A stretch of 64,000 bases of DNA. Origin: Umezawaea endophytica (GTDB lineage: Bacteria > Actinomycetota > Actinomycetes > Mycobacteriales > Pseudonocardiaceae). How positions within the stretch are numbered: the stretch's first letter is position 1; each line of letters opens with the position of its first letter. Below are positions 3 through 16,757 of the stretch, piece by piece. The notes below the pieces were generated by a model that was not told where the DNA came from, made no database searches, and saw only the letters and a list, made by a program, of their open reading frames with translations. The DNA is taken from contig NZ_JANYMP010000020.1 in assembly GCF_025061645.1 (NCBI RefSeq), forward strand, positions 1 through 64,000, read 5' to 3'. The translations under genes were made by a program, and so were the position numbers.

Positions 3-1469
3 CTCTCCCAAGCCCGCACCGCCGCCGCCATCACCGCGCTGCTCGGTGGAGGTGGGGCACCGGCGCCGAAGGCGATCGAGAACACCGGCGCCGAGGCGGT
101 GGTGATCGCCCCGCAGCGGCTGGTGATGGCGGAGTTCGCGCTGCCGTCGGCCACCGCCCCCGAATCGTTGGCCGGTCGGCGCTTCCTGGTCGTCGGCGAC
201 GGCGAGGAACTGGTGGCACGGCTCGTGGACCTGGGCGCGGAGGTGACCCGCGACCCGGCCGCGACGGTCGACGGCGTGTTCCACCTCGACCGCTCGACCG
301 CGCTGCCCGAGGCGTTCCCGCTGTTCCGGGCGTTGCTGGCCAACGGTCCTCGCCACCTGGTCGTCGTGGGGTCCGGCGAAGGCCTGCGCGGGTTCACCCG
401 CAGCGCCGCCAGGGAGTACCCCGACACGGCGGTGAAGGTCGTCGAGTTCGACGGTGAGGTCCGGGTGGACGCGCTGGTCGCCGAACTCGGGGCCACCGAC
501 GGAGAACCCGTCGTCCGGATCACCGGAGCGGGCCGGGTCGGGCTGCGGATGGTCGAGACCGACCTGGGGCTGCTCGGCAGCTCCGGCGCGGGCCCGGCCG
601 GTGACGGCGCCGCCGAAGCGCTGGCGATCGGGCTCGACCGCGACTCCGTCGTGCTGCTGGTCGGTGGCGCGAAGGGCATCACCGCCCGCTTCGCCGCCAC
701 GGTGGCGAGCGCGAGCCGGTGCCGGATCGAACTGCTGGGCCGCACCGCGCTGCCCACCGAGGACGAGCCGCCCGCCATCGCGGCGGCGGCCGACCCCGCC
801 GCCCTGCGGGCCGCGCTGATCGCGAGCGGGCTGCGGGTCCCGGCCGAGATCGAACGGGAGATCGGGCGGATCGAGGCCGTGCGGGAGGTGCGCGACACCG
901 TGCGGCGGCTGACCGAGTTGGGCAGCGCGGTGCGCTACCACTCCGTGGACATGCGGGACGTCGAGGCCGTGCACCGCGCGGTCAAGGAGATCCACACCGA
1001 GCACGGCAGGCTCGACGGCGTCGTGTACGCGGCCGGGGTCATCGAGGACAAGCTGATCGCGGAGAAGACCGCCGAGTCGTTCGGCCGGGTGTTCGCCACC
1101 AAGGTCGACGGCGCCAAGACGCTCCTCGAAGCCGTCGACGGGCTGCCGAACGGGCCGCGGTTCGCGGTGTTCTTCGGCAGCATCGCCGCGGTGCTGGGCA
1201 ACCGCGGCCAGTCCGACTACGCCGCCGCGAACGACGCACTGGAATCGTTGGCGCGCCGGTGCTCCTACCGCGCGCTGACCGTCCACTGGGGACCGTGGGC
1301 GCCGACCGGCGTCAACAACGGCATGGTGACGCCGGAGCTGATGCGGTCCTACGCCAAGCGCGGCATCAAGCTGATCGACCCGGAGGAGGGCGCGCTCAGC
1401 CTGCTGCGCGAACTCGCCTGGGGCCCGGAGGCGCTGGACTCGGTGGTCTACACGGCATCGGGCTGGTGA
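3..1469 (+). CDS. Multidomain polyketide/PUFA-synthase-like protein, C-terminal ketoreductase part (5' end outside window)
   Basis: The reading frame is open from the first base, so this is the last 488 residues of a longer protein. The first ~35 residues look like a linker, probably after an ACP. Next come a structural half-Rossmann subdomain (about 35-190) and a catalytic SDR-type ketoreductase: nucleotide-binding motif LLVGGAKGITA, Lys in TKVDGAK, Ser in FFGSIAA and Tyr in QSDYAAAND. This KR style is seen at the C-terminus of PfaA-like and other iterative type I synthases, where it reduces the ACP-bound beta-keto intermediate. The stop is 5 bp before the next synthase gene, so the two are probably co-transcribed. 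The missing N-terminus (KS, AT and ACP are expected) cannot be judged here. KR assignment is confident; the family assignment is inference. Confidence 0.85.
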   Translation, partial: LSQARTAAAITALLGGGGAPAPKAIENTGAEAVVIAPQRLVMAEFALPSATAPESLAGRRFLVVGDGEELVARLVDLGAEVTRDPAATVDGVFHLDRSTALPEAFPLFRALLANGPRHLVVVGSGEGLRGFTRSAAREYPDTAVKVVEFDGEVRVDALVAELGATDGEPVVRITGAGRVGLRMVETDLGLLGSSGAGPAGDGAAEALAIGLDRDSVVLLVGGAKGITARFAATVASASRCRIELLGRTALPTEDEPPAIAAAADPAALRAALIASGLRVPAEIEREIGRIEAVREVRDTVRRLTELGSAVRYHSVDMRDVEAVHRAVKEIHTEHGRLDGVVYAAGVIEDKLIAEKTAESFGRVFATKVDGAKTLLEAVDGLPNGPRFAVFFGSIAAVLGNRGQSDYAAANDALESLARRCSYRALTVHWGPWAPTGVNNGMVTPELMRSYAKRGIKLIDPEEGALSLLRELAWGPEALDSVVYTASGW

Positions 1470-1474
1470 CGACG

Positions 1475-4400
1475 ATGAGCACCCCTGTCGCCATCGTCGG
1501 CATGTCGGTCCTGCTGCCCGGCGCGCCGGACCTGGACACGTACTGGGGCAACATCACCAGCGGCGTGGACGCGATCACCGAGGTCCCGGCCGGCCGCTGG
1601 GACGCCGACTACTACGAGCCCGACCTGGCACGCCGGGCCGACCGGGTCTACTGCCGCCGCGGCGGTTTCGTAGACCCGCTGGCCGAGGTCGACGTCGTGA
1701 GCTTCGGGATCATGCCGAACTCCGTGGCGGGCACCGAACCCGACCAGTTGATCGCCCTGCACGTCGCGGCGGCGGCCATCGCGGACGCGGGCGGCGACGC
1801 CCGGCTGCCGGTCGACCGGGAGCGCGTCGGCGTGGTGCTCGGCCGCGGCGGCTACCTGACGCCCGCGCTGGCCCGGCTGGACCAGCGGGTCCGGACAGCG
1901 CGCCAGCTCGTGCGCACGCTCGGCCAGCTCATGCCGGAACTGGGCGACGAGAAGCTGGAGCAGGTGCGGCAGGCGTTCAGCGACCAGCTCGGCCCGGACT
2001 CCCCGGAGTCCGCGATCGGGCTGGTGCCGAACCTCGCCGCGTCCCGCGTGGCGAACCGGCTCGACCTGCGCGGCCCCGCCTACACCGTGGACGCGGCCTG
2101 CGCGTCCTCGCTGGTCGCGGTCGACCACGCGGTGCGCGAACTCGCCGACGGGCGCTGCGACGTGGTGCTCGCGGGCGGGGTGCACCACTGCCACGACATC
2201 ACGCTGTGGAGCGTCTTCACCCAGCTCGGCGCCCTGTCACCGAGCCAGCGCATCCGTCCGTTCGACAAGGGCGCGGACGGCGTGCTGATCGGCGAGGGCA
2301 CGGGTGTGGTGGTGCTGAAGCGCCTCGCCGACGCCGAGCGCGACGGCGACCGGGTGTACGCGGTGATCACCGGGACCGGTGTCGCCAGCGACGGCCGCAC
2401 CGCGTCGCTCGTCAACCCGGACACCGGCGGCCAGGTCCGCGCGATCCGCCAGGCGTGGCTCGCCGCGGGCACCGATCCGACCGCGTCGGGCTCGATCGGT
2501 CTGCTGGAAGCCCACGGCACGGCCACCCCCGCCGGTGACGCGGCCGAACTCGCGACGCTGGCCGAGGTGTTCGGGCCCGCGTCCGCGACCGACCGGCCGG
2601 TGATCGGCTCGGTCAAGTCCATGATCGGCCACACCATGCCGGCGGCGGGCGTCGCCGCGCTGGTGAAGGCCGCTCTGGCCGTGCACCACGGAGTCCTGCC
2701 GCCCACCCTGCACTGCGAGGACCCGCACCCGGCGCTGGCGACCACCCGGTTCCGGCCGATCGCCGAGGTCCGGCCGTGGGTCGACGAGGTGCGGCGGGCG
2801 GGCGTGAACGCGTTCGGGTTCGGCGGCATCAACGCGCACGTCGTGCTGGAGCAGGCCCCCACCAGCAGGCCGGGTCCGGCCGTGGTGCTGGAACCGGAAC
2901 GGGTGCTGCGGCTGTCCGCGGCGTCCCCCGGCCACCTGGCCGCGCTGCTCGACACCGACGACGCGACCGTGCTCGCCGCGAGCCTGGACGAGCGCGAGGC
3001 GGCGACCGGGCCGACCCGGCTCGGGATCGTCGACCCCACCCCGAAACGCCTCGCGCTGGCGCGCAAGGCCGTGGCCAAGGGCGCGGGCTGGCGGGGCCGC
3101 AACGACGTGTGGTTCGCGCCGAAACCCCTGCTGGGCACCGGGGGCGGCAAGCTCGCGTTCATCTTCCCCGGTCTGGAGGCGGACTTCGCGCCGTCCGTGG
3201 ACGCGCTCGCCCGCCGGTTCGGCCTCGACTGGCGCTCCGAAGCGCTCGTCGGCGACGTCGGCAGGCACGGCACGGGCGTGTTCCAGCTCGGCAGGCTCCT
3301 GGACACCGTGCTGCGCGAACTCGGCGTGCGGCCGGACGGCGTCGCGGGGCACAGCGTCGGCGAGTGGACCGCGATGGCCGCCGGGGGGATCCACTCCGCG
3401 CACCAGGTCGACGCGTTCCTCAGCGCCTTCGACCCGGACGCGCTGCGCGTGCCCGGCCTGGCGTTCGCGGTGCTCGGCGCCCCGGCCGACCAGGTGCTGG
3501 CCGCACTCGCGAACCAGGACGACGTGGTGCTGTCCCACGACAACGCGCCCAGCCAGTCGATGGTCTGCGGACCGGCCGAAGCCGTCGAGGCGCTGGTGCT
3601 GAGGTTCCGCGCCGACGGCGTGATCAGCCAGGTGCTGCCGTTCCAGTCCGGTTTCCACACGCCGATGCTCGAGCCCTACCTCGCGCCGATCCAGCGGGCG
3701 GCGGAGACCTACGACATCAACCCGGCGCGGGTGCCGGTGTGGTCGGCCACGACCGCGAGCGAGTTCCCGACCGACCCGGACGAGGTGCGCGCCCTGTTCG
3801 TCCGGCACCTGCTGGAGCCCGTGCGGTTCCGGCCGATGGTCGAGGCCATGCACGCGGCCGGGTTCCGGGCGTTCGTGCAGCTCGGCGTCGGCCAGACCGG
3901 GTCGCTGATCACGGACACGGTGCAGGGCAACGACACCCTGGTCGTGTCCGCGCACTCGCCGCACCGCGACGGGATCGACCAGGTGCGCCGGGTCGTGACC
4001 GCGCTGTGGGTCGACGGCGCCGAACCGGACGTCCGGCCGCTGCTCCCCGAGTCCGCGAAGCGGCGGCGGGCGCCGGTCCGGCTGGACCTCGGCGGTGCGC
4101 TCATCACGCTCGACTCGCGCACCCGGCTGCGGGTGCCCGGCCAGGCGTCCGCATTGGACAGCCTGGTCGACGGCTCGCCGCTCGCGGCGGAGTTGTCGTT
4201 GCTGCTCAAGGACACCGCGGACGTGGCGGCCGAGCTGCTCACGAAACGCAGGCCCGCCCCCGCTCCCTCGGTGCGGAAGCTCGACGCGGTGCTGCCGGTG
4301 TCCGTCGACACCATGCCCTACCTGCTGGACCACTGCTTCTTCCAGCAGCGCCCAGGCTGGCCCGACCACGTCGATAGCTGGCCGGTCGTGCCCGCCACGA

Positions 4401-5641
4401 CGGTGATCGGCCACCTGATGGCGTTCGCCGAGCAGGCGGCTCCCGGACAGCGGGCCGTCGCGGTGCACGACGTGCGGCTCAGCCAGTGGATCACGGCCAT
4501 CCCGTCGGTCGACGTGCCGGTCAGCGTCGTGCCCGCGGGTGACGACCGGGTGCTGGCCTCGCTGGACGGCTACTCCCGCGCGGTCGTCGAACTGGCGCCG
4601 GAGTTCCCCGCCCAGGCGCCCGCGCCCTGGACGTTCACCGACGAGCGGAAGCCGGACCTGACCGCGCGCGAGCTGTACGACGAGCGCTGGATGTTCCACG
4701 GCCCCCGGTTCCAGGGGGTCGAGGAGCTGACGGCGATCGGCCCGAAGCACGTGCGCGCCAGGCTGGTCACGCCCGCCGCGCCCGGCGCGCTGCTGGACAA
4801 CGTCGGCCAGGTGCTCGGCTACTGGATCATGGCGTCGCTGCCGGACCGCACGACGGTGTTCCCGGTCGCGATCCACCGCATCCGCTTCCACGGCGACCAC
4901 CCGGCCGCCGGGGAGGAGCTGGAGTGCCTGGTGCGCATCACCTCCGTGACCGACAACGCCCTGACCGCGGACATGCAGCTCGTCCGCCGCGGCCGCGTGT
5001 GGGCGGAGTTCGACGGCTGGTCGGACCGCCGGTTCGACAGCGACCCGAACATCCGCGCGAACGACCGGGCGCCGGGCCGCAACACGCTGTCCACTGTGGA
5101 GGATGGCGGCTGGACGCGCGTGCACGAGCGGTGGCCGGACCTGGCGACCCGCGAGCTGATCATGCGCAACCAGCTCGGCAGCGCCGAGCGCGAGCAGTAC
5201 GACCAGCAGTCGCCGCGGGCGAAGCGGCAGTGGCTGCTGGGCCGGATCGCGGCGAAGGACGCGGTGCGCCGCTGGATGTGGGAGCACGGCGAGGGCGAGG
5301 TGTTCCCGGCCGAACTCCTGTTGCGCGACAACGAGGTCGTGGGCGTGCACGGGCGGGAGGCTCCCCCGTTGACGGTGTCGGTCGCCCATCACGGGGAACT
5401 CGGCGTCGGGATCGCCCGACGTGGTCGCTGCGGTATCGCCGTCGAGCCTGCGGACGACCCGGACGCCGTGGCGAAGGCGAGCAGTGCGGCTCTGGAAAAA
5501 GCTTTCGGAGCGCGCTTCGCACCCTCCGACGGCGCGGTCCCCGAAGTGCGGTGCGCACGGATCGGCAACCCGCCGGGTCTGCCGAGCAGGGAGTACATCG
5601 TGGCCTGGACGGCCGACGACGAACAGGAGATGGGCACATGA
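1475..5641 (+). CDS. Iterative type I synthase, KS-AT-DH-PPTase-like (1388 aa)
   Basis: Domain order: ketosynthase (about 1-460) with nucleophile in DAACASSL (C209) and histidines in EAHGTATPAGD (H347) and SMIGHT (H386); acyltransferase (about 555-850) with GHSVGEW (S627) and GFHTP (H728); double-hotdog dehydratase (about 940-1190) with LLDHCF (H953) and LLDNVGQ (D1108, Q1112); then a C-terminal phosphopantetheinyl-transferase-like region (about 1225-1388) with WLLGRIAAKDAVRRW. There is one KS and no chain-length-factor copy, so it is not a standard PfaC. The layout is closer to enediyne or heterocyst-glycolipid-type iterative synthases. The PPTase part looks eroded: the usual GVDIE metal site reads GIAVE, and no WxxKEA motif follows. 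ATG 1475 is used as start; GTG 1466, in frame and overlapping the upstream stop, is an alternative. The end overlaps the ACP gene (ATGA). Confidence 0.88.
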   Translation: MSTPVAIVGMSVLLPGAPDLDTYWGNITSGVDAITEVPAGRWDADYYEPDLARRADRVYCRRGGFVDPLAEVDVVSFGIMPNSVAGTEPDQLIALHVAAAAIADAGGDARLPVDRERVGVVLGRGGYLTPALARLDQRVRTARQLVRTLGQLMPELGDEKLEQVRQAFSDQLGPDSPESAIGLVPNLAASRVANRLDLRGPAYTVDAACASSLVAVDHAVRELADGRCDVVLAGGVHHCHDITLWSVFTQLGALSPSQRIRPFDKGADGVLIGEGTGVVVLKRLADAERDGDRVYAVITGTGVASDGRTASLVNPDTGGQVRAIRQAWLAAGTDPTASGSIGLLEAHGTATPAGDAAELATLAEVFGPASATDRPVIGSVKSMIGHTMPAAGVAALVKAALAVHHGVLPPTLHCEDPHPALATTRFRPIAEVRPWVDEVRRAGVNAFGFGGINAHVVLEQAPTSRPGPAVVLEPERVLRLSAASPGHLAALLDTDDATVLAASLDEREAATGPTRLGIVDPTPKRLALARKAVAKGAGWRGRNDVWFAPKPLLGTGGGKLAFIFPGLEADFAPSVDALARRFGLDWRSEALVGDVGRHGTGVFQLGRLLDTVLRELGVRPDGVAGHSVGEWTAMAAGGIHSAHQVDAFLSAFDPDALRVPGLAFAVLGAPADQVLAALANQDDVVLSHDNAPSQSMVCGPAEAVEALVLRFRADGVISQVLPFQSGFHTPMLEPYLAPIQRAAETYDINPARVPVWSATTASEFPTDPDEVRALFVRHLLEPVRFRPMVEAMHAAGFRAFVQLGVGQTGSLITDTVQGNDTLVVSAHSPHRDGIDQVRRVVTALWVDGAEPDVRPLLPESAKRRRAPVRLDLGGALITLDSRTRLRVPGQASALDSLVDGSPLAAELSLLLKDTADVAAELLTKRRPAPAPSVRKLDAVLPVSVDTMPYLLDHCFFQQRPGWPDHVDSWPVVPATTVIGHLMAFAEQAAPGQRAVAVHDVRLSQWITAIPSVDVPVSVVPAGDDRVLASLDGYSRAVVELAPEFPAQAPAPWTFTDERKPDLTARELYDERWMFHGPRFQGVEELTAIGPKHVRARLVTPAAPGALLDNVGQVLGYWIMASLPDRTTVFPVAIHRIRFHGDHPAAGEELECLVRITSVTDNALTADMQLVRRGRVWAEFDGWSDRRFDSDPNIRANDRAPGRNTLSTVEDGGWTRVHERWPDLATRELIMRNQLGSAEREQYDQQSPRAKRQWLLGRIAAKDAVRRWMWEHGEGEVFPAELLLRDNEVVGVHGREAPPLTVSVAHHGELGVGIARRGRCGIAVEPADDPDAVAKASSAALEKAFGARFAPSDGAVPEVRCARIGNPPGLPSREYIVAWTADDEQEMGT

Positions 5642-5982
5642 GCGTCGAAACCACCGCGCCGGTCACCGAAGGCCAGGTCACCCAGGACCAGATCACCGGC
5701 GAAGCGGTGCTCGCCGAGATCTCCGGGATGCTGCGCGTCCTGCTGGACGAGTACGGCCTCGACGACGTCGAGATCACCATGGCCACCAAGTTCCACGAGG
5801 ACCTGGAGTTGGAGAGCATCGACCTCGTCTCGCTCTCCGCCGACCTCAAGGAGCGCTACGGCAACCAGGTCAACTTCGCCGAGTTCATCGCGGGGTTCGA
5901 CCTGGAGGAGATCATCGCGATGACCGTCGGCCAGCTCGTCGACCACGTCGTGGTGTCGCTGCGCGAAGCGGCCCGCGGATGA
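5638..5982 (+). CDS. Free-standing acyl carrier protein
   Basis: A 114-residue acidic protein with the ACP core: helix I from about residue 22, and the phosphopantetheine site in LELESIDLV (S60), preceded by an acidic stretch. The first ~20 residues (Thr/Gln-rich) are a leader not found in primary-metabolism AcpP. The ATG overlaps the upstream synthase stop by 4 bp and its own stop overlaps the hydrolase start, so it is translated as part of the synthase operon. It probably holds the growing chain or hands the finished chain to the hydrolase/glycosyltransferase; the exact role is inferred. Confidence 0.9.
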   Translation: MSVETTAPVTEGQVTQDQITGEAVLAEISGMLRVLLDEYGLDDVEITMATKFHEDLELESIDLVSLSADLKERYGNQVNFAEFIAGFDLEEIIAMTVGQLVDHVVVSLREAARG

Positions 5983-6779
5983 CGAAGATCCTCGCGGGCG
6001 ACCTCGACACCCACGTGCAGCGCCTCCCGCCGACGATCCCGGTCGACGGCGAGGCGCCGGTCGTGGTGTTCATCCACGGCCTGCTCACCGACAGCCTGGC
6101 GAGCTACTACTTCACCCTCGGGCCCGCGTTCGCGGCGGCGGGCGTCGACGTGGTGATGTACGACCTGCGCGGGCACGGCAAGTCCGGCCGACCGGCGACC
6201 GGCTACCAGTTGGAGCGGTTCGTCTCCGACCTGGTGTCGCTGCTGGACGCCATGGACATCACCCGGCCCGTGCACCTGGTCGGCAACTCCTTCGGCGGCA
6301 GCATCGCGTTCGGCCTCGCCGCAGCGCACCCGGAGCGGGTCGCCACGGTCATCGCCATCGAGGCCGAGCCGCCCGTCCAGGCGTGGACCGTGCGGATGGC
6401 CGAGGGCCTTGACCTGGCCAAGTCGCAGCTCACCCAGGACGCGGTGATCGACTGGATCGCGGTCAACAACGGCAAGCACACCGCCCGGCTGTCACGGGCC
6501 GCGGGCAGGCTGCTCCAGGTGACCTCGATGCTGGAGGACATCCCGGTCAGCGACACGATCGCGGACGACCTGTCGGCGATCCGCTGCCCGGTGCTGGCGA
6601 TCTTCGGCGCCGATTCGGGGCTGTCGCGGCAGGTGCCGTACTTCGAGTCGTACCTGGCGTCGTGCCGCACGGTCGTGCTGCCCGACCAGGGCCACTCGGT
6701 GCTGATCGAGCGCACGGACGAGACCCGCGACGCGATCCTGGGCTGGGTGCGCGACCACGCGTTGGGCCGCGTCGGGTGA
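5979..6779 (+). CDS. Alpha/beta hydrolase, possible chain-release or tailoring enzyme
   Basis: A 266-residue single-domain alpha/beta hydrolase. The oxyanion region is FIHGLL, the strand motif is YDLRGHGKSG, the nucleophile elbow is GNSFGG (S104), an acid lies near IFGADSG and the catalytic His is in DQGHSVL, so the Ser-Asp-His triad is complete. There is no signal peptide, so it should be cytosolic. Start ATG 5979 overlaps the ACP stop (ATGA) and its stop overlaps the glycosyltransferase start (GTGA). In this position a thioesterase or acyl hydrolase releasing the ACP-bound chain is the simplest reading, but esterase or cyclase roles are equally open. Neither synthase protein shows a terminal thioesterase in the window, which supports release by this enzyme. 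Confidence 0.85.
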   Translation: MTKILAGDLDTHVQRLPPTIPVDGEAPVVVFIHGLLTDSLASYYFTLGPAFAAAGVDVVMYDLRGHGKSGRPATGYQLERFVSDLVSLLDAMDITRPVHLVGNSFGGSIAFGLAAAHPERVATVIAIEAEPPVQAWTVRMAEGLDLAKSQLTQDAVIDWIAVNNGKHTARLSRAAGRLLQVTSMLEDIPVSDTIADDLSAIRCPVLAIFGADSGLSRQVPYFESYLASCRTVVLPDQGHSVLIERTDETRDAILGWVRDHALGRVG

Positions 6780-7906
6780 GCCGGTTCCTCTTCGTGGTGC
6801 CGCCGCTGGTCGGGCACGTCAACCCGACCATCGGGGTCGCCGCGGAACTGGTCTCGCGCGGCCACGAGGTCGCGTGGGCGGGCCACCACGACGCGATCGG
6901 GAAGCTCGTCGGACCGGACGCGCGGGTGTTCGGCTGCGCGTCACCGGAACTGGTGCCGCGCGGCTCGGACCTGACCGGCCCGGCGGCGTTCCGGTTCCTG
7001 TGGCAGGAGTTCCTGCTGCCGCTGGGCGAGGCCATGAAACCCGGTGTGCGCACGGCGATCGGGGCGTTCCGGCCGGACGTCGTGGTCGCCGACCAGCAGG
7101 CCATCGCGGGTGGGCTGGTCGCCGAGGAGCTCGGCGTCCCGTGGATCACGTCCGCCACGACGTCCGCCGAACTCGTGGACCCGTTGGCAGGCATGCCGAA
7201 GGTCAAGGCGTGGCTCGCCGAGCGGATCGACGCGCTGCGCGGCGGGCACGGCGGACCGGACCCGAGGATGTCGCCGCACGGCGTCCTCGCGTTCACCACG
7301 CGGGAACTGCTCGGCGAGGTCGACCTCCCCCACGACGACGTGTGGCTGGTCGGCCCATCCATCGTCCCCCGACCGTCCACAGCGGACTTCCCGTGGGAGT
7401 GGCTGACCCGCGACGCGCCCACCGTGCTGGTCACCCTGGGCACGGCGAACGCCGACGCCGGTCACCGCTTCCTCGCCCAGGCCGCGCAGGCGTTGGCGCG
7501 CCTGGACGTCCGGGCCGTGCTGGTCGACCCGGACAGCTCGCTGACCGAGGTCGGCGACAACGTCCTGGTGCGGCGGCACGTCCCACAGCTCGACCTGCTC
7601 CCCCACGTCGACGCCGTGGTCTGCCACGCGGGCCACAACACGGTGTGCGAGGCGCTGTGGCACGGCGTCCCCCTCGTCGTCGCGCCGATCCGCGACGACC
7701 AGCCCATCGTCGCGGGCCAGGTCGTCGACGCGGGCGCGGGCGTGCGGGTGCGCTTCTCCCGCGCCACCTCGACCCACCTGTCCGATGCCGTCACGGCCGT
7801 GCTCGACGAGGCGAACGGCCACCGCAAGGCCGCCGCGCTCGTCGGCGACTCGTTCCGCGCGGCAGGCGGCGCGACCCGCGCCGCCGACCACCTCGAGAAG
7901 GTGTGA
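6776..7906 (+). CDS. UDP-glycosyltransferase family (GT1/MGT-like)
   Basis: A 376-residue GT-B fold protein. The N-terminal acceptor half opens with FVVPPLVGHVNPTIGVAAEL, typical of macrolide-type glycosyltransferases. The C-terminal donor half has CHAGHNTVCEAL followed by GVPLVVAPIRDDQ, the nucleotide-sugar signature. No signal or membrane segment is seen. Start is GTG 6776, overlapping the hydrolase stop by 4 bp. Activity on a product of the neighbouring synthases, giving a glycoside or glycolipid, is inferred from operon position. No sugar-nucleotide biosynthesis genes are in the window, so the donor may be a housekeeping sugar such as UDP-glucose. Confidence 0.9.
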   Translation: MSRFLFVVPPLVGHVNPTIGVAAELVSRGHEVAWAGHHDAIGKLVGPDARVFGCASPELVPRGSDLTGPAAFRFLWQEFLLPLGEAMKPGVRTAIGAFRPDVVVADQQAIAGGLVAEELGVPWITSATTSAELVDPLAGMPKVKAWLAERIDALRGGHGGPDPRMSPHGVLAFTTRELLGEVDLPHDDVWLVGPSIVPRPSTADFPWEWLTRDAPTVLVTLGTANADAGHRFLAQAAQALARLDVRAVLVDPDSSLTEVGDNVLVRRHVPQLDLLPHVDAVVCHAGHNTVCEALWHGVPLVVAPIRDDQPIVAGQVVDAGAGVRVRFSRATSTHLSDAVTAVLDEANGHRKAAALVGDSFRAAGGATRAADHLEKV

Positions 7907-7914
7907 GGACCCCG

Positions 7915-9645
7915 ATGTCCGGATCTTTCGGCACGCTGCTGTCGTACGCGAGGCCGCACCGCGCGGTCCTGCTGTCCACGCTCGCGCTGACCCTGCTGGC
8001 CAGCGCCTGCGGCCTCGCCCAGCCGCTGGTGGCGCAGGACGTGCTGAGCGCGCTGGGCACCGGCGGCGGCGTGACGGGCCCGATCCTCGCGCTCGCCGCC
8101 CTGCTGCTCGCGGGGGCCGCGCTGACCGGCGGGACGGCGTGGCTCCAGCAGCGCACGTCGGAGAGCGTCGTCCGCGACGTCCGCCGCGGCCTGGTGTTCC
8201 GGCTCATCCGGCTCCGCGTCCCCGAGCTGGACCGGCGCCCGCCGGGCGACCTGATCGCCAGGGTCACGTCCGACAGCACCCTGCTCCAGAGCGCGGCGAC
8301 CGAGGGCCTGATCCTGGTCGTCAACGGCGCGCTGACGCTCGTCGGCGCGATCGTGCTGATGGGCACCCTGCACCTCGGGCTGCTCGGCGTGACGCTGCTG
8401 GTCCTGTTCGCGGTCGCGGTGGTCCTGACCCTCGTGCTGCCCCGCATCCGCCAGGCCGTGGCACGGGCCCAGGAGTCGGTCGGCGCGATCGGCGCCACCC
8501 TCGACCGCACGCTGGGCGCCGCCAGGACCGTGAAGGCGAACGGCGCGGAGGACCGCGAGACCGCCCGCGCCGAGGACGCCGTCGAGCACGCCTACCAGGC
8601 CGGACTCGTCGGCGCGCGCTACTCCGCGATCGTCAGCGTCGTCTCCGGCGCGTCGATCCAGGGCGCTTTCCTGGCCGTGCTCGGCTTCGGGGGGATGCTC
8701 GTGGCGTCCGGCGACCTGTCGGTGGCCTCGCTGATCGCGTTCCTCCTCTACGTGTTCTTCCTGGCGGGCCCGATCGCCTCCCTCATCGGCGGCGCCAGCA
8801 AGCTCCAGCAGGGCCTTGGCGCGGTGGGCCGCATCGAGGAGGTCCGCGACATGCCCATCGAGGACGACGTGGCCGCGCTCGTGGCGCTCCCCGACGGCCT
8901 GCCCCCGCCGTCGATCGAACTGCGGGACGTCCACTTCTCCTACCCCGGCCGCGCCCCCGCGTTGCAGGGCGTCTCCTTCACCATCGCGGGCGGCACCCAG
9001 ACCGCGCTGGTCGGCCTGTCCGGCGCGGGCAAGACCACCATGTTCGCCCTGCTCCAGCGCTTCTACGACCCGGTGGCGGGCTCGGTCCTCATCGACGGCC
9101 GGGACGTCTCCTCGATGACCCGCGCCGAGGTCCGCCGACGCATCGCCTACGTCGAGCAGGACGCTCCCGCGATGGCGGGCACCATCCGCGACAACCTCCT
9201 CTACGCCGCCCCTTCGGCGACGGACGAGGACATCGCCGAGGCACTGCGCGTGACCTGCCTCGACACCCTGGTGAACGGTCTTGAGCTGGGCCTGGACACC
9301 TCCGTAGGGCCGCGCGGCGTGACCCTGTCCGGCGGCGAGCGCCAGCGGCTGGCCATCGCCAGGGCGTTGCTCCGCAAACCGCAGGTGCTCCTCCTCGACG
9401 AGGCCACGGCGCAGCTCGACGCCCGCAACGAGCAGGCCCTGCGGGACGCCGTCACCAGCGCCGCGCGGCGCTGCACCGTGGTCCTGATCGCGCACCGCCT
9501 GTCGACGGTGACCGAGGTCGACCAGATCGTGGTGCTGGAACACGGATCGGTGCGGGCGAGGGGCACGCACCGCTCGCTGGTGGACGACGACGACCTGTAC
9601 CGCGAACTGGCGTCGACCCAACTCCTTGCCGATGCTATGGAATAG
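7915..9645 (+). CDS. ABC half-exporter (fused TMD-NBD, ABCB type)
   Basis: A 576-residue fusion with six predicted membrane helices in the first ~320 residues, followed by a nucleotide-binding domain: Walker A GLSGAGKTTMF, signature LSGGERQRLAIARALL, Walker B VLLLDEATA and switch His in LIAHRLSTV. All catalytic motifs are intact. As a half-transporter it should homodimerise and export. It begins 8 bp after the glycosyltransferase stop, at ATG 7915 with GTGTGAGGAC upstream. Export of the glycosylated product is the likely role; lipid flipping is another possibility for this family. Confidence 0.92.
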   Translation: MSGSFGTLLSYARPHRAVLLSTLALTLLASACGLAQPLVAQDVLSALGTGGGVTGPILALAALLLAGAALTGGTAWLQQRTSESVVRDVRRGLVFRLIRLRVPELDRRPPGDLIARVTSDSTLLQSAATEGLILVVNGALTLVGAIVLMGTLHLGLLGVTLLVLFAVAVVLTLVLPRIRQAVARAQESVGAIGATLDRTLGAARTVKANGAEDRETARAEDAVEHAYQAGLVGARYSAIVSVVSGASIQGAFLAVLGFGGMLVASGDLSVASLIAFLLYVFFLAGPIASLIGGASKLQQGLGAVGRIEEVRDMPIEDDVAALVALPDGLPPPSIELRDVHFSYPGRAPALQGVSFTIAGGTQTALVGLSGAGKTTMFALLQRFYDPVAGSVLIDGRDVSSMTRAEVRRRIAYVEQDAPAMAGTIRDNLLYAAPSATDEDIAEALRVTCLDTLVNGLELGLDTSVGPRGVTLSGGERQRLAIARALLRKPQVLLLDEATAQLDARNEQALRDAVTSAARRCTVVLIAHRLSTVTEVDQIVVLEHGSVRARGTHRSLVDDDDLYRELASTQLLADAME

Positions 9646-9653
9646 TCGGTGGT

Positions 9654-10991
9654 GTGCCGGTACGCAAACCGCTCGTGCTCGCCATCTGCTGCATGAGCCT
9701 CTTCATCGTCGGCTTGGACGCGACGATCGTGAACCTCGCGCTGCCGTCGATCCGCGAGGAGCTGGACGCCTCGGTGACCGGACTCCAGTGGACGGTCGAC
9801 GCGTACACGCTCGTCCTGGCGGCCCTGCTCGTGCTGTCCGGCTCCACCGCCGACCGCCTGGGCAGGCGCCGCACGTTCCAGACGGGCCTGGTCCTCTTCA
9901 GCCTCGGCTCGCTGCTGTGCAGCATCGCGCCGTCCGTCGGCCTGCTCATCGTGTTCCGCATGGTCCAGGCCGCGGGCGGCTCCATGCTCAACCCGGTCGC
10001 CATGTCGATCATCACCAACACCTTCACCGAGAAGCGCGAACGCGCCAGGGCCATCGGCGTCTGGGGCGGCGTGGTCGGCCTCAGCATGGCCGCGGGCCCG
10101 CTCGTGGGCGGCGCGCTGGTGGAGACGATCGGCTGGCGGTCGATCTTCTGGCTCAACGTCCCGGTCGGCGTGCTGGCCATCGTCCTCACGGCCCTCTTCG
10201 TCCCGGAGTCGAAGGCCCCGAACCCCCGCCGACTGGACCCGGTCGGCCAACTACTGGTGATCGTGATCCTCGCGGGAACCGTCTTCGGGATCATCGAGGG
10301 CCCCGGCAAGGGCTGGACGTCACCACTGATCATCGGCTGCTTCACCGCGGCCGCACTGGCGCTCGCCGCCCTGCTCTTCTACGAGCCCCGCCGCGAGGAC
10401 CCACTCCTGGAACTGCGCTTCTTCCGCAGCATCCCCTTCTCCGGCGCCACGGTGATCGCGGTCTGCGCCTTCGCCGCGCTGGGCGGCTTCCTGTTCCTCA
10501 ACAGCATCTACCTCCAGGAAACCCGCGGCTTCTCCGCCTTGCACGCGGGTTTGCTGACGTTGCCCATGGCCGCCATGACCGCCATCTTCGCTCCCCTGTC
10601 CGGCCGTCTCGTAGGCGCTTGGGGAGCACGGGTCCCGCTGCTGGTCGCCGGAGTCGGCCTCACCACCGCGGGCCTCCTGCTGACCAGGACCGGCCCCGAC
10701 TCACCGATCGCGCTGCTGGTCGTCGCGTACACCGCGTTCGGCATCGGGTTCGGCATGGTGAACGCACCGATCACGAACACCGCCGTCTCCGGGATGCCCA
10801 CCGAACAGGCGGGCGTGGCCGCGGCCATCGCCTCCACCAGCCGCCAGGTCGGCGCGGCACTGGGCGTCGCCCTGATCGGCGCTTTCGCCGGCAGCGCGGT
10901 CGGCTGGTGGATCATCGCGGGCTGCGGGGTGGCGGTCACCGTGCTGGGCGCGGCGACAACCGGTCAACGAGCGTTGAAGTCCACGCTGTAG
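9654..10991 (+). CDS. MFS exporter, DHA2 (EmrB/QacA) family, 14-TMS
   Basis: A 445-residue very hydrophobic protein. The first helix carries FIVGLDATIVNLALPSI, the DHA2 motif D1; motif A-like loop ADRLGRRRTF and motif C-like GVVGLSMAAGPLVGGAL follow. About 14 membrane helices are expected. Proton-driven drug or metabolite export is the family role. It starts at GTG 9654, 8 bp after the ABC exporter stop, and appears to be the last gene of the biosynthetic operon. Its last 28 bp overlap the end of the opposing SDR gene, so the two transcripts converge with no terminator between them. It may provide self-resistance or a second export route. Confidence 0.9.
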   Translation: MPVRKPLVLAICCMSLFIVGLDATIVNLALPSIREELDASVTGLQWTVDAYTLVLAALLVLSGSTADRLGRRRTFQTGLVLFSLGSLLCSIAPSVGLLIVFRMVQAAGGSMLNPVAMSIITNTFTEKRERARAIGVWGGVVGLSMAAGPLVGGALVETIGWRSIFWLNVPVGVLAIVLTALFVPESKAPNPRRLDPVGQLLVIVILAGTVFGIIEGPGKGWTSPLIIGCFTAAALALAALLFYEPRREDPLLELRFFRSIPFSGATVIAVCAFAALGGFLFLNSIYLQETRGFSALHAGLLTLPMAAMTAIFAPLSGRLVGAWGARVPLLVAGVGLTTAGLLLTRTGPDSPIALLVVAYTAFGIGFGMVNAPITNTAVSGMPTEQAGVAAAIASTSRQVGAALGVALIGAFAGSAVGWWIIAGCGVAVTVLGAATTGQRALKSTL

Positions 10992-13113: not shown

Positions 13114-14982
13114 CTACAACAGCGTCAACTGGTCCCGGTCAATCCCCCTCTGCGTAGGCACTCCTGCGGGCAGCGCGCCGTTCGGCCAGCGGCCCTCGCC
13201 GTCGCCCGGCACGCCGGCCTCTCCTCTCCCCACGAACCCGTGCCGTCTCAGCAGCGGCCGCATTCGGGTCTCCAGCCACCTCCGGTACCGCTTGTCCGCG
13301 TAGCTCCCGGACCCGTACAGGTTCCGGTACCCGTCCAGCAGGTCCGGGTGTTCGCGGAGCAGCCAGGACGCGAACCACTCCCGTGCGCCCGGTCGCAGGT
13401 GTAGGGCGAGTGCTGTCACGCCGGTGGCTCCGGTGGCCGCTACCGCGCCCAGCAGGGCGTCCAGGTGTTCCTCGGAGTCGGTCAGGGCGGGCAGGACGGG
13501 TGCGATGAAGACGCCGCAGGGCAGGCCTGCGTCCCGGACCCGGCGGACCAGGTCCAGGCGGGCCTGGGGGCTGGGGGTGCCGGGTTCGAGCGACTGCTGG
13601 AGGTCGCGGTCCAGCAGGGCGAGGGACACGCCGATCCCGACCGGCACGGACTTCGCGGCCTCGGTCAGCAGGGGTAGGTCGCGGGCGAGCACCGTGCCCT
13701 TGGTCAGGATGGAGAACGGGGTGCCCGAGTCGGCGAGCGCCTTGATGATCCCCGGCATCAGCCGGTACCGGCCCTCGGCCCGCTGGTACGGGTCCGTGTT
13801 GGTGCCCATCGCCACGTGCTCGCGCTGCCACCGCGTCGACCGCAACTGCCGGGTGAGCACCTGGACGGCGTTGACCTTCACCACGACCTGGGTGTCGAAG
13901 TCGTGGCCCGTGTCCAGGTCGAGGTAGCTGTGCGTGTTGCGGGCGAAGCAGTTGTGGCTCACGACACCGTTGGCGACGAAGTCGCCGGTGCCGGTGGTGA
14001 TGTCGAACAGCTCCCGGTCCTCCCCGAGCGCCTCGACGGCGACGACGCCCACGGCCGCGTCGAGCGGCGCGGCGTCGACGGATCGGGACGAGCTGCGAGC
14101 CGGGTCGACCACGTGGCAGAACCGCAGGGCCTCCGGCGCGCCGCCGCGCACCCGCGTGACGCCGTCCTCGACCGTGCAGTCGAAGTCGAGGCGTTTCAAC
14201 CCCAGCACCACGGCGTCCACGATGGGGTGGTCCGTGCGGATCCGCAGCACCCCGCCGTCGCACCGGCCCGCCGCGTCGAACACGCCCGCGAGGAACCCCT
14301 TGGTCCACCCGTCCCCCGGCGCGACGGGCCACTCGATCCGGTCACGGTCGAGGCCCGCGTACAGCTCGGCCCGCTCCAGCGCCTCGGGCTCGGTGGTCAG
14401 CCCGCCCCGGACGACGCCCCACAGGTACCCGCTCCGGTACTCGGCGTCCTGCTCGGGACCGGCGGAGAACCCGCCGAACCCGACCAGCCTGTCACCCACC
14501 GCCAGCCGCGGGAGGTCGCAGGAGCCGGACGCCACGTGCCTCCAGCCCTCGGTGGTCAGGAAGCGGTGGTCCCCACTGGACACCAGGGACGCACCGTCCT
14601 CGAGGACCACCCGGAACGCGGGCTTCACGGTGCGCCAGTGCGCGAGGACGGTGGTACGAACGTACCGACCGCCACGAGTGCCGCAGACCTCGTCGCCGAC
14701 CTCCAGGTCGGCGAGCGCCCGAACCCTCCCGTCGCCCAGCAGCACCGGGGTCGAACCGTCCAAGCAGTACGTGCAGCCGTGCGTGCACCCGCGATAGGGG
14801 TTGACCGTCCACTTGAACGGCATCGGGGAGGCTCCGGGGACCTTGTTCAGCACGGACTTGGCGTGGACCTCGTGGAACACCACCTCGGCGAACTCGGGAG
14901 TTCGTACGCTGCGCACGAGCCCCGGCAACCCCGGTAGCGCCTGCCGAGGCGCCGCCCCGTCCTTCTGCCCGTCCCATCGCAT
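13114..14982 (-). CDS. Rv2578c-family radical SAM protein with an in-frame intein
   Basis: The 622-residue precursor contains a 272-residue intein (residues 73-344), leaving a 350-residue mature protein, the usual size for the Rv2578c family (spore-photoproduct-lyase-like radical SAM). The SAM/4Fe-4S motif is split: RGCTHGCTY precedes the intein and CFARNTH follows, so the CxxxCxxC cluster motif exists only after splicing. Downstream are GTNTDPYQRAE and later SAM-barrel segments. Start ATG 14982 (MRWDGQ) fits family starts; an upstream GTG/ATG would run through the SOS box. The M. tuberculosis homologue is reported as LexA-controlled, and a perfect SOS box lies 8 bp upstream here. The substrate is unknown. 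It is convergent with the TetR side and divergent from pnuC. Confidence 0.92.
   Translation of the reverse strand: MRWDGQKDGAAPRQALPGLPGLVRSVRTPEFAEVVFHEVHAKSVLNKVPGASPMPFKWTVNPYRGCTHGCTYCLDGSTPVLLGDGRVRALADLEVGDEVCGTRGGRYVRTTVLAHWRTVKPAFRVVLEDGASLVSSGDHRFLTTEGWRHVASGSCDLPRLAVGDRLVGFGGFSAGPEQDAEYRSGYLWGVVRGGLTTEPEALERAELYAGLDRDRIEWPVAPGDGWTKGFLAGVFDAAGRCDGGVLRIRTDHPIVDAVVLGLKRLDFDCTVEDGVTRVRGGAPEALRFCHVVDPARSSSRSVDAAPLDAAVGVVAVEALGEDRELFDITTGTGDFVANGVVSHNCFARNTHSYLDLDTGHDFDTQVVVKVNAVQVLTRQLRSTRWQREHVAMGTNTDPYQRAEGRYRLMPGIIKALADSGTPFSILTKGTVLARDLPLLTEAAKSVPVGIGVSLALLDRDLQQSLEPGTPSPQARLDLVRRVRDAGLPCGVFIAPVLPALTDSEEHLDALLGAVAATGATGVTALALHLRPGAREWFASWLLREHPDLLDGYRNLYGSGSYADKRYRRWLETRMRPLLRRHGFVGRGEAGVPGDGEGRWPNGALPAGVPTQRGIDRDQLTLL
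13951..14766 (-). other. Intein (272 aa) inserted in the radical-SAM cysteine motif
   Basis: The N-terminal splice block starts CLDGSTPVLLGDGRV with Cys1. A block-B-like segment is SSGDHRFLT. The C-terminal blocks are ELFDITTGTGDFVANGV and VVSHN, ending in His-Asn, and the +1 extein residue is Cys345. All residues needed for class 1 splicing are present. The centre carries two DOD-like motifs, GYLWGVVRGG and GFLAGVFDAAG. These resemble LAGLIDADG helices, but the acidic catalytic residue is doubtful in the first, so the homing endonuclease is probably degenerate. NCBI-style annotations already recognise intein-containing members of this family, so the insertion site itself may be known. Confidence 0.92.
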
Positions 14983-14989
14983 GCAAATA

Positions 14990-15007
14990 TTCGAACACGT
15001 GTTCGAA
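14990..15007. promoter_or_regulatory. LexA/SOS box, 18-bp perfect palindrome
   Basis: TTCGAACACGTGTTCGAA is a perfect palindrome. It contains the Gram-positive/mycobacterial SOS core CGAAC-N4-GTTCG. It lies 8 bp before the radical-SAM start on the minus strand and 23 bp before the pnuC start on the plus strand. On the minus strand GAATAT (about 14986-14992) could serve as a -10 placing the transcript start at or next to the ATG, that is, a leaderless mRNA with LexA bound over the promoter. The motif is seen directly; LexA binding is inferred. Confidence 0.9.
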
Positions 15008-15030
15008 CCGGCGTCAATCGGAGTCACCCG

Positions 15031-15660
15031 TTGGATTACCTACTGTCACTCTTCACCACCCCCGCGCTCACCTTCGCGGGCGCCACGACCACCTGGGGCG
15101 AGGTGTTCGGGTTCGTGACGGGCGCCCTCTGCGTGTGGTTGGTGGCCCGGCAGAACACCTGGAACTGGCCCATCGGCATCCTGAACAACCTGGCGTTCCT
15201 CGCGCTGTTCGCCACCAGCGGCCTCTACGCCGACTCGGGGTTGCAGGTCGTCTACCTGGGACTGGCGCTCTACGGCTGGTGGTCCTGGCTGCGCGGCGGC
15301 GTCGAGCACACGCCGCTGCCGGTCAGCCGCACGACGACGGCGCAGTGGCTCTGGCTGGCCGTCGCGGGCGTCGTGCTGACCGGTGTCCTGGTGTGGGTCC
15401 TGACGGCCTTCACGTCGTCGACCGTGCCGTGGGCGGACGCGATCACGACGGTCCTGTCGCTGCTGGCGACCTGGGGCCAGACGCGCAAGAAGCTGGAGTC
15501 GTGGTGGCTCTGGATCGCCGCCGACGTCATCTACGTGCCGCTCTACGCGTACAAGGGCCTGTGGCTCACGGCCGTCCTGTACCTCGGCTTCATCGCCCTG
15601 TGCGTCCTGGGCCTGCGGTCCTGGTCGAAGGCCTACCGCCGGGACCTGGTGGCCGCGTGA
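15031..15660 (+). CDS. pnuC: Nicotinamide riboside transporter PnuC
   Basis: A 209-residue integral membrane protein with about seven helices. Family marks are RQNTWNWPIGILNN, a YGWWSWLRGG loop, and the C-terminal ESWWLWIAADVIYVPLY segment, which carry the aromatic/Asn residues of the substrate channel in PnuC proteins. It mediates facilitated uptake of nicotinamide riboside. The start is TTG 15031 with GGAG 7 bp upstream. Its stop overlaps the nadR start (GTGA), so transport and phosphorylation are translationally coupled. The promoter region contains the SOS box of the divergent radical-SAM gene, so DNA-damage control of NAD salvage is possible but unproven. Confidence 0.93.
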   Translation: MDYLLSLFTTPALTFAGATTTWGEVFGFVTGALCVWLVARQNTWNWPIGILNNLAFLALFATSGLYADSGLQVVYLGLALYGWWSWLRGGVEHTPLPVSRTTTAQWLWLAVAGVVLTGVLVWVLTAFTSSTVPWADAITTVLSLLATWGQTRKKLESWWLWIAADVIYVPLYAYKGLWLTAVLYLGFIALCVLGLRSWSKAYRRDLVAA

Positions 15661-16757
15661 CCCGCTTCCGCCACGCGCTGGTGCTCGGCAAGTTCTACCC
15701 GCCGCACGCCGGGCACCACCACCTGGTCCGCACGGCCGCGGCGAGCAGCGAGCGCACGACCGTCGCCGTGCTGGGGGCGAGCGTCGAGTCGATCCCGCTG
15801 GCCGACCGGGTGGCCTGGCTGGCCGCCGAGCACGCGGACGATCCCGGCGTGGTCGTCGTCGGTGACGTCGACGACCACCCGATGGACTTCGAGGACGACG
15901 CGATCTGGGAACTGCACATGGGCGTCACGCGGTCGGCGCTGGCCCGTCGGGCGATCCTCGACGGCGACCCGACGGGCGCGCCGGTGGACGCCGTGTTCTC
16001 CAGCGAGGCCTACGGGGACGAGCTGGCGAAGCGGCTGGGCGCGGAGCACGTGCCCGTCGACCCGGCGCGGTCGGCGTTCCCGGTGTCCGGCACGGCGGTG
16101 CGCGCCGACCCGGCCGCCCACTGGCACCACCTGGCGCCGTCGACGCGGCGCGGGCTCGTCGCGCGGATCGTCGTGGTGGGCGCGGAGAGCACCGGGACGA
16201 CGACGCTGTCGCGCGCGCTGGCCGCCGAGCTGGGCGCGCCGTGGGTGCCGGAGTACGGCAGGCGGCACACGGAGCTGAAGCTGGCCGCCGCCAAGGCCTT
16301 CGACCCCCGCGCCGGGGTGGACGATCTGGTGTGGACGGTCGGCGACTTCGTGGACGTGGCCGTGCGCCAGCGGATCGACGAGGACGCGGCCGTGGACGGA
16401 CCGGTCCTGGTGTGCGACAACGACCCGTGGGCGGCGACGGTCTGGGGCCACCGCTACCTCGGCGCGCCGCACCCCGACATCGCGCCGGACGCCCGGAAAC
16501 CCGCCCTGTACCTGCTGACCGACCACGTCGGGGTGCCGTTCGAGCAGGACGGCTGGCGGGACGGCGAGCACCTCCGGGAGGCGATGACGGGCCTGTTCAC
16601 CGCGGGCCTGGCCGACCGCGGTGTGCCGTGGCGGCTGCTCACCGGCACGCCCGACGACCGGCTGGCGCAAGCGGCGACGGCCGTGGAGGAGGTGCTCGCC
16701 GAGCACTTCCGCTTCGCGAAACCCCTGGAGGCGCCGAAAACCGGTCGCCAGGGGTGA
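15657..16757 (+). CDS. nadR: NadR-like bifunctional NMN adenylyltransferase / ribosylnicotinamide kinase
   Basis: 366 residues. The N-terminal nucleotidyltransferase domain has GKFYPPHAGHHHL (the GKFxPxHxGH motif) and the FPVSGTAVR segment equivalent to ISGTxxR. The C-terminal kinase domain starts about residue 165 with VVGAESTGTTTL. The P-loop has Thr where a Lys is usual in Walker A. There is no N-terminal DNA-binding domain as in enterobacterial NadR, so a purely enzymatic role in NAD salvage from the nicotinamide riboside imported by PnuC is likely. It starts at GTG 15657, overlapping the pnuC stop, and is followed 24 bp later by a phosphotransferase gene. Confidence 0.9.
   Translation: MTRFRHALVLGKFYPPHAGHHHLVRTAAASSERTTVAVLGASVESIPLADRVAWLAAEHADDPGVVVVGDVDDHPMDFEDDAIWELHMGVTRSALARRAILDGDPTGAPVDAVFSSEAYGDELAKRLGAEHVPVDPARSAFPVSGTAVRADPAAHWHHLAPSTRRGLVARIVVVGAESTGTTTLSRALAAELGAPWVPEYGRRHTELKLAAAKAFDPRAGVDDLVWTVGDFVDVAVRQRIDEDAAVDGPVLVCDNDPWAATVWGHRYLGAPHPDIAPDARKPALYLLTDHVGVPFEQDGWRDGEHLREAMTGLFTAGLADRGVPWRLLTGTPDDRLAQAATAVEEVLAEHFRFAKPLEAPKTGRQG

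Follow-up and report, generated by a model that had tools for sequence, protein, structure and literature searches.

A polyunsaturated fatty acid synthase-like operon of Umezawaea endophytica with a conserved glycosyltransferase, probably dedicated to a glycosylated long-chain lipid

A stretch of 64,000 nucleotides of Umezawaea endophytica DNA (the window; bases 1-64000 of contig C20 in a genome of 11.0 Mb and 65 contigs) opens with seven open frames on the + strand at positions 3-10991. With reasonable confidence, these genes are interpreted as a secondary-lipid synthase operon that resembles polyunsaturated fatty acid (PUFA) synthases, that is of the fused PfaDA plus fused PfaBC-phosphopantetheinyl transferase (PPTase) type, and that is dedicated to a glycosylated long-chain product. 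The product is probably a glycosylated long-chain (hydroxy) fatty acid. The interpretation draws on the observed gene content and domain order, on the catalytic residues that are kept or lost, on the conservation of a five-gene core and on the selection acting on the genes.

Gene content and conservation of the operon

The two synthase genes are spaced by 5 bases and the genes for the ABC and MFS proteins by 8 bases, and there are 4-base overlaps at the junctions of synthase 2 with the acyl carrier protein (ACP) gene, of the ACP gene with the hydrolase gene, of the hydrolase gene with the glycosyltransferase gene and of the glycosyltransferase gene with the ABC gene. In view of the four overlaps and two short gaps the seven frames are read as one operon, in agreement with an earlier sequence-only reading which had recognized a compact seven-gene operon at 3..10991. 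Each frame is supported by both Pfam and NCBIfam, with labels in order of KR (ketoreductase); KS (ketosynthase), AT (acyltransferase) and PS-DH (dehydratase, DH); PP-binding; Abhydrolase_1; UDPGT/MGT; ABC_membrane plus ABC_tran; and MFS/EmrB. The gene assignments made previously were backed throughout by these matches, except that the PPTase of synthase 2 is a relic which lacks the catalytic motifs and any match to PF01648. The features are as follows, with ER denoting enoyl reductase.

3..1469, + strand: C-terminal part of synthase 1, comprising an ACP tail and then a KR at about 648-1301 (Pfam)
Contig C17, base 220019 to the contig end (= locus L097:15020-19990): N-terminal ER-KS-AT-ACP part of synthase 1
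1475..5641, + strand: synthase 2, KS-AT-DH with an altered AT and a PPTase remnant, 1388 aa (Pfam, residue check, fold model)
1481..2719, + strand: KS of synthase 2, Cys-His-His intact, with no chain-length factor (CLF) after it (Pfam, alignment)
3092..3964, + strand: AT of synthase 2 (limits approximate; aa 612-803 matched by Pfam), GHSVGE and SGFH kept, malonyl Arg replaced by Phe (FDPD)
4310..5044, + strand: DH of synthase 2 (approximate limits), double hotdog of the polyketide synthase (PKS) type, catalytic His and Asp kept
5180..5638, + strand: decayed PPTase domain (start approximate), with GIAVEP in place of the relatives' GIDIEE and the FWxAKEA segment deleted
5638..5982, + strand: discrete ACP, LESIDLV (Pfam, motif)
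5979..6779, + strand: alpha/beta hydrolase resembling thioesterases/acyltransferases, with a Ser nucleophile within GNSFGG and His239 conserved
6776..7906, + strand: glycosyltransferase of the GT1/MGT family (Pfam, NCBIfam)
7903..9645, + strand: MsbA-like ABC half-exporter, lineage-specific (Pfam, NCBIfam)
9654..10991, + strand: DHA2-type MFS exporter (Pfam, NCBIfam)

Conservation was assessed in the best 80 of 230 relatives, a set which leans toward close relatives and in which some loci are truncated at the end of a contig. Synthase 1, synthase 2, the ACP and the glycosyltransferase were matched in 80/80 loci and the hydrolase in 78/80, a distribution on which both synthases, the ACP, the hydrolase and the glycosyltransferase can be taken as a conserved five-gene core. 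Joint conservation of the glycosyltransferase and the exporters with the synthases, on which the sequence-only reading had laid weight, held for the former but not for the latter: a close ABC exporter (>60% identity, >400 residues) was present in 10/80 loci and a close MFS homologue in 1/80, that of Umezawaea tangerina. The exporters were dropped as cluster-defining genes on these counts and are lineage-specific, the glycosyltransferase being part of the conserved core. A gene for an S-adenosylmethionine (SAM)-dependent methyltransferase follows the glycosyltransferase gene in 47/80 loci, none of which overlaps with those that have a close ABC exporter. When flank genes called within 7.5 kb downstream were clustered, no family besides the methyltransferase occurred in >14 loci. 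Every one of the seven genes gave a dN/dS of 0.09-0.27 (simple Nei-Gojobori script) in comparison with U. tangerina (locus L009), the closest named relative in the scan, whose synthase 2 is 91% identical. A single contig of U. tangerina DSM 44720 carries the whole set of seven genes.

Synthase 2 was found in 79/200 genomes of the family and in 18/46 genera, and roughly two fifths of the sampled family genomes therefore carry this lipid pathway to which no product is assigned. The glycosyltransferase gene lies within 8 kb of synthase 2 at 88/94 places in the same sample, searched at a threshold of E 1e-60 and with the second fragment of the gene of genome G057 left out to give 94 places. In an even sample of the phylum, the glycosyltransferase was beside synthase 2 in 7/8 further genomes. 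Among four distant loci compared, the order synthase 1-synthase 2-ACP-hydrolase-glycosyltransferase is kept in three (L120, L121 and L123); the glycosyltransferase is missing from the fourth (L122), in which the two synthases and the hydrolase are present. This tight bond with the glycosyltransferase turns an 'unknown PUFA-like cluster' into a testable prediction, namely a glycosylated long-chain hydroxy acid.

Architecture of the two synthases

A contig break within the ACP region of synthase 1 marks the start of the window. With the use of DNA from the U. tangerina locus, the front of synthase 1 was found at the extreme end of contig C17 (225,002 bases), which shows 86% identity to that DNA over 2.2 kb, the window holding the remainder. 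The intact homologue of U. tangerina (P0001; 2272 aa) comprises an NMO/PfaD-like ER, a KS, an AT, two ACPs (PP-binding) and a KR. Synthase 1 is an ER-KS-AT-ACP-KR protein of the fused PfaD plus PfaA type, and the two pieces of the copy at the window show the same order. In U. tangerina the tandem ACPs are identical at 63/70 aa and 186/210 nt, and this near identity is a likely reason for the contig break in the ACP region. One to three ACPs per synthase 1 were apparent by motif count (69 copies). The leftward extension advised by the sequence-only reading thus yielded a PfaD-like ER plus KS-AT-ACP, by which the enzyme is grouped with PUFA-like secondary-lipid synthases of the uncharacterized kind.

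TIGR02813 (PfaA) is the top NCBIfam model both for the intact U. tangerina synthase 1 (878 bits) and for synthase 2 of the window (464.6 bits), each below the cut-off of 1010.1. A modular PKS piece of the same genome, taken as a control, gave 1704 bits with its top model NF045894 and 400 bits with TIGR02813. The earlier description of split, iterative, PUFA-synthase-like enzymes is supported. Residues of synthase 1 were counted in 69 full-length copies out of 80 loci, with the C17 piece added for the AT: the malonyl-type Arg and Gln are each present in 70/70 ATs, the KS motifs in 69, 68 and 66 of 69 copies and the ER motif in 66/69. The pattern used for the KR motif was too strict (46/69) and the KR count was left unused.

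In synthase 2 the KS Cys is conserved in 81/81 copies, and the second condensing domain is therefore a true KS and not a CLF. The sequence-only reading had described a single KS with its own intact AT and no CLF. The catalytic residues of both domains and the lack of a CLF agree with that description, but the AT is not of the malonyl type: at aligned columns Arg is present in 0/81 copies and Gln in 0/81, the latter at a column of less certain alignment, with GHSxGE and the His each in 81/81. A malonyl AT was ruled out by the missing Gln/Arg in this residue check. The Gln-Arg pair is lost also in PfaB, for which a role as terminal acyltransferase for long chains is reported (PMC12895367; this and the other PMC sources are cited for the portions of text available). 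The AT of synthase 2 suggests a PfaB-like, non-malonyl acyl-chain transferase. At least 95% of the 81 copies retain the catalytic His and Asp of the DH, and PS-DH was the sole DH match in synthase 2, in which a FabA-type DH/isomerase was not found by Pfam. A model of the C-terminal half, built with 47/81 sequences, has a mean pLDDT of 87.7 and its DH part matches PKS dehydratases (5hst, TMt 0.77). Segments of synthase 2 other than the PPTase relic gave dN/dS values of 0.04-0.25 against U. tangerina. At the distant locus L123 (G388 contig C42), the part of synthase 2 that is matched begins with residue 475, past the KS, and immediately follows synthase 1; the open frame there has 3365 aa and may encode one fused protein that lacks the second KS.

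PF01648 (Sfp-type PPTase) gave no Pfam match in synthase 2 of the window, in which the GxDxE and WxxKEA motifs are lost. The domain was detected in 4/4 scanned relatives that kept the motifs (L010, L015, L031 and L056) and in 0/3 scanned copies without them (window, L009 and L058). The lost motifs and absent match ruled out a working PPTase at the C-terminus of synthase 2. The metal-binding Asp is lost in 9/81 copies, those of the window, L009 and seven Streptomyces loci, and the KEA motif also is absent in five of the nine (window, L009, L059, L063 and L064). Strict motif patterns flagged 10/81 (GxDxE) and 13/81 (WxxKEA) copies; the nine Asp losses were counted after reading by eye, by which L021, L026, L034, L035 and L039 were seen to keep variant motifs. 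In the synthase 2 tree (FastTree, midpoint-rooted), in which clades were taken from the topology irrespective of support values, the seven Streptomyces loci form one clade separate from Umezawaea. Thus, the PPTase probably was lost independently at least twice. The relic is under purifying selection (dN/dS 0.23 against U. tangerina) and was modelled mostly with high confidence. As the built-in PPTase is decayed, the carriers in this genus would have to rely for activation on a PPTase from another locus; two further PF01648 matches are present in the genome, and a PPTase is encoded on contig C18.

The hydrolase has a Ser nucleophile in 70/79 copies and a Cys in 9/79 (L041, L047, L051, L058, L059, L061, L063, L064 and L065), seven of the latter being the Streptomyces loci with a decayed PPTase. 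Either nucleophile would fit an acyl-enzyme. The protein is folded in a confident model, built with 43/79 sequences, that had no diagnostic fold match.

Several further observations concern these gene families and their neighbors. A second pathway set is present in the same genome on contig C3:469600-489500 (L099, L112), with both synthases, the ACP, the hydrolase, the glycosyltransferase and a methyltransferase. Its glycosyltransferase and synthase 2 are 53% and 45% identical to those of the window, a PPTase was not found in its synthase 2, and its synthase 1 gave 846 bits with TIGR02813, below the 1010.1 cut-off. All three genomes of the genus that were searched have homologues of the glycosyltransferase with no synthase 2 close by. 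A glycosyltransferase of the same family, 56% identical, is carried on contig C16 of the same genome by a differently built cluster of AT-ACP, SDR-KS-KR, P450, KR and ACP (L110:4064-16576), and a differently built cluster with a glycosyltransferase of the same family likewise is found at the same-genus locus L124. Both Umezawaea-type loci have a GDSL lipase gene just ahead of synthase 1 (L097:13919-14764 and L009:2090-2908), and this gene family is close to the cluster in 12/80 loci. Two tandem genes beside the distant cluster copy at L120 (L120:3665-6579) presumably encode proteins like the wax-ester synthase/DGAT-type acyltransferases. Downstream of the operon, a radical-SAM protein that apparently contains an intein (matched by Intein_splicing under the cut-off) is encoded at 13114-15027 on the - strand, followed at 15031-16757 on the + strand by a PnuC-like nicotinamide mononucleotide transporter and an AAA_28 protein. 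The latter is taken to resemble NadR, and the two perhaps form a nicotinamide riboside salvage pair.

Proposed pathway and competing explanations

A route may be proposed in which the chemistry, the order of steps, the chain length, the sugar and the export are predicted from the gene set. The malonyl-type AT of synthase 1 would load malonyl units onto the synthase 1 ACP(s), activated in this genus by the PPTase encoded elsewhere; the KS would condense iteratively, the KR and the fused PfaD-like ER would reduce, and the DH of synthase 2 would dehydrate in trans. Because the DH and ER are at separate sites, some cycles could stop at the hydroxyl, leading to a long hydroxy-fatty acyl chain. The KS and non-malonyl AT of synthase 2 may act in late elongation and/or in transfer of the finished chain to the free ACP. 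The alpha/beta hydrolase would form an acyl-enzyme and so release or transfer the chain, and a sugar would be added to a hydroxyl by the MGT-family glycosyltransferase. In this lineage the MsbA-like ABC and MFS proteins are predicted to export the product, and in other lineages a SAM methyltransferase gene comes after the core instead. The glycosylated and exported secondary lipid which the sequence-only reading had predicted is supported as a prediction. Of the genes concerned, the glycosyltransferase belongs to the core and the pair of exporters lacks conservation.

A number of points weigh against the assignment to a dedicated glycolipid operon. The product class is predicted, as no metabolite of any member was found in the open-access literature searched, and a single glycosyltransferase cannot account for multiply glycosylated products. 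Synthase 2 is uncommon outside the family, being present in 9/396 genomes of the even phylum sample, U. endophytica included, and in one of these (G403) the glycosyltransferase gene is about 850 kb from it. At six of the 94 places in the family sample, there was no match to the glycosyltransferase on the same contig at E 1e-60, and the hydrolase was unmatched in L076 and L082 (2/80). Synthase 1 scores under the PfaA cut-off (878 vs 1010). The PfaB analogy appears partial, since the AT of synthase 2 has GHSxG and not the GYSxG nucleophile motif of bacterial PfaB, in which a Tyr precedes the catalytic Ser (PMC12895367), and the Gln column of the AT comparison is the less certain one. The second KS seems not to be universal, as the distant locus L123 shows. 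The hydrolase is similar to many esterases, and none of its fold matches is diagnostic.

Two narrower forms of the glycolipid interpretation differ in the fate of the chain. In one, which is a credible if tentative proposal, the product is a linear envelope or surface glycolipid that resembles phenolic lipids or the heterocyst glycolipids in function, serves in structure or as a barrier and is flipped by the ABC exporter. Lipids of this kind are made by related synthases (PMC3098273). The MsbA-like character of the exporter, which also matches the HepA model below the cut-off, and the presence of the synthase in 79/200 family genomes are consistent with such a role, but the export genes are not conserved and the distribution is patchy outside the family. 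Moreover, the hgl islands for heterocyst glycolipids have a thioester reductase, which was not found by Pfam among the seven proteins. In the other form, which is possible but rather unlikely, a long 3-hydroxy (poly)hydroxy fatty acid is glucosylated by the glycosyltransferase at the 3-hydroxyl and the hydrolase joins two units head to tail via the glucose 6-OH, producing macrodiolide rings of the fattiviracin, cycloviracin and glucolypsin type. The corresponding hypothesis, which is equally doubtful, is that the five-gene core supplies the missing biosynthetic genes for the macrocyclic glycolipids of actinobacteria (fattiviracin, cycloviracin, glucolypsin and macroviracin), with the hydrolase as a cyclodimerizing acyltransferase and the methyltransferase and ABC lineages giving methylated and exported variants. 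In fattiviracin, cycloviracin and glucolypsin, two O-glucosylated hydroxy fatty acids (about C18-C28) are joined in a ring, and compounds of the fattiviracin type come from actinobacteria, namely Streptomyces, Kibdelosporangium and Nocardia (PMC4365757). Biosynthetic genes for them were not found in the open-access literature, covered chiefly as titles and abstract starts. A dimer with single glucosylation is compatible with a core of synthase, glycosyltransferase and acyl-enzyme hydrolase, and related synthases of heterocyst-forming cyanobacteria make C26-C32 chains with hydroxyl or keto groups which are glucosylated by the dedicated HglT (PMC3098273, PMC11804610). The Cys nucleophile in 9/79 hydrolases is compatible with acyl transfer, although a Ser-to-Cys change in one other thioesterase lowered cyclization while loading rose (PMC11934086). 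None of the 80 named loci is from a producer, and fattiviracin and cycloviracin bear more sugars than one glycosyltransferase explains. If the hypothesis is true, antiviral compounds described between 1992 and 1999 would gain their genes (PMC4365757).

The remaining explanations depart further from a glycolipid pathway. The glycosyltransferase might serve in self-protection by inactivating a bioactive product intracellularly as OleI and Mgt do for macrolides, and MGT, OleI and Mgt are indeed its top NCBIfam models, all below the cut-off. This role is improbable given that the gene is kept at 88/94 places, with or without an ABC exporter or methyltransferase, and in distant clusters of the same gene order. 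Loss of the PPTase catalytic motifs might indicate a decaying, non-functional cluster, which is very hard to reconcile with the retention of the KS, AT, DH, ACP and hydrolase motifs, with dN/dS values of 0.09-0.27 across the genes and 0.23 even in the PPTase relic, and with the two PF01648 matches elsewhere in the genome. An omega-3-type PUFA synthase is scarcely credible: TIGR02813 is the top NCBIfam model for both synthases, but the PfaA cut-off is not reached, there is no CLF, the DH is solely of the PKS type and a dedicated glycosyltransferase is present. A known PUFA cluster, which the sequence-only reading had allowed for, thus is not what was found (878 vs 1010.1 bits, no KS-CLF, no FabA-like DH/isomerase).

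Comparison with known systems

The operon is of a known kind, a PUFA-like secondary-lipid synthase. A characterized product for its layout was not found in the open-access literature, with MIBiG and most subscription papers outside the search, in agreement with the earlier statement that no characterized pathway has this gene order. Within the same scope the glycosyltransferase-hydrolase-ACP core, the exporter/methyltransferase split and the repeated loss of the PPTase also were not found.

Type M secondary-lipid synthases pair a PfaD-PfaA fusion with a PfaB/C fusion that has a PPTase at its end, as here, a likeness that is set by domain description and in which the PPTase is decayed in the window but present in the fused PfaBC homologue of relatives (L010, L015, L031 and L056). 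Type M is listed for actinobacteria including Renibacterium, among types with uncharacterized products (Shulse and Allen 2011, PMC3098273), and Actinosynnema pretiosum (L031), whose genus includes a listed Type M organism, carries the five-gene core. Fused pfaDA and pfaBC-PPTase genes occur as well in two Bacteroidetes clusters, which are said to resemble the Renibacterium arrangement (PMC13291983), and neither paper names a product for this arrangement. The word glycosyltransferase is absent from the available text of Shulse and Allen 2011 (PMC3098273), whereas the glycosyltransferase is core here.

PUFA synthases have 4-6 ACPs (PMC3098273) compared to one to three in synthase 1. The PfaABCDE systems share with the operon the functions of ER, KS-MAT-ACP-KR (MAT, malonyl-type AT), second KS, non-malonyl AT, DH and PPTase, but the operon lacks a CLF, no FabA-like DH/isomerase was found in it and it has a dedicated glycosyltransferase and hydrolase. 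Domain order and gene content are unlike the layouts that enediyne and aryl-polyene clusters are presumed to have, a comparison made by description with no dedicated test. SCO0126-SCO0127 of S. coelicolor, labelled 'eicosapentaenoic acid', also is a PUFA-like synthase in an actinobacterium; the pair is taken to be a Type L cluster and was set aside on that ground as a candidate for the same system. Type L has a fused KS-CLF-DH2-AT protein and a separate ER (PMC3098273), unlike the operon described here.

The hgl islands (Type F) share with the operon an iterative synthase, a glucosyltransferase (HglT), an exporter and a long hydroxylated chain. In these islands hglC encodes KS-CLF-AT and the cluster is without the DH/isomerase (PMC3098273), whereas synthase 2 is a KS-AT-DH protein with no CLF and the operon includes an alpha/beta hydrolase.

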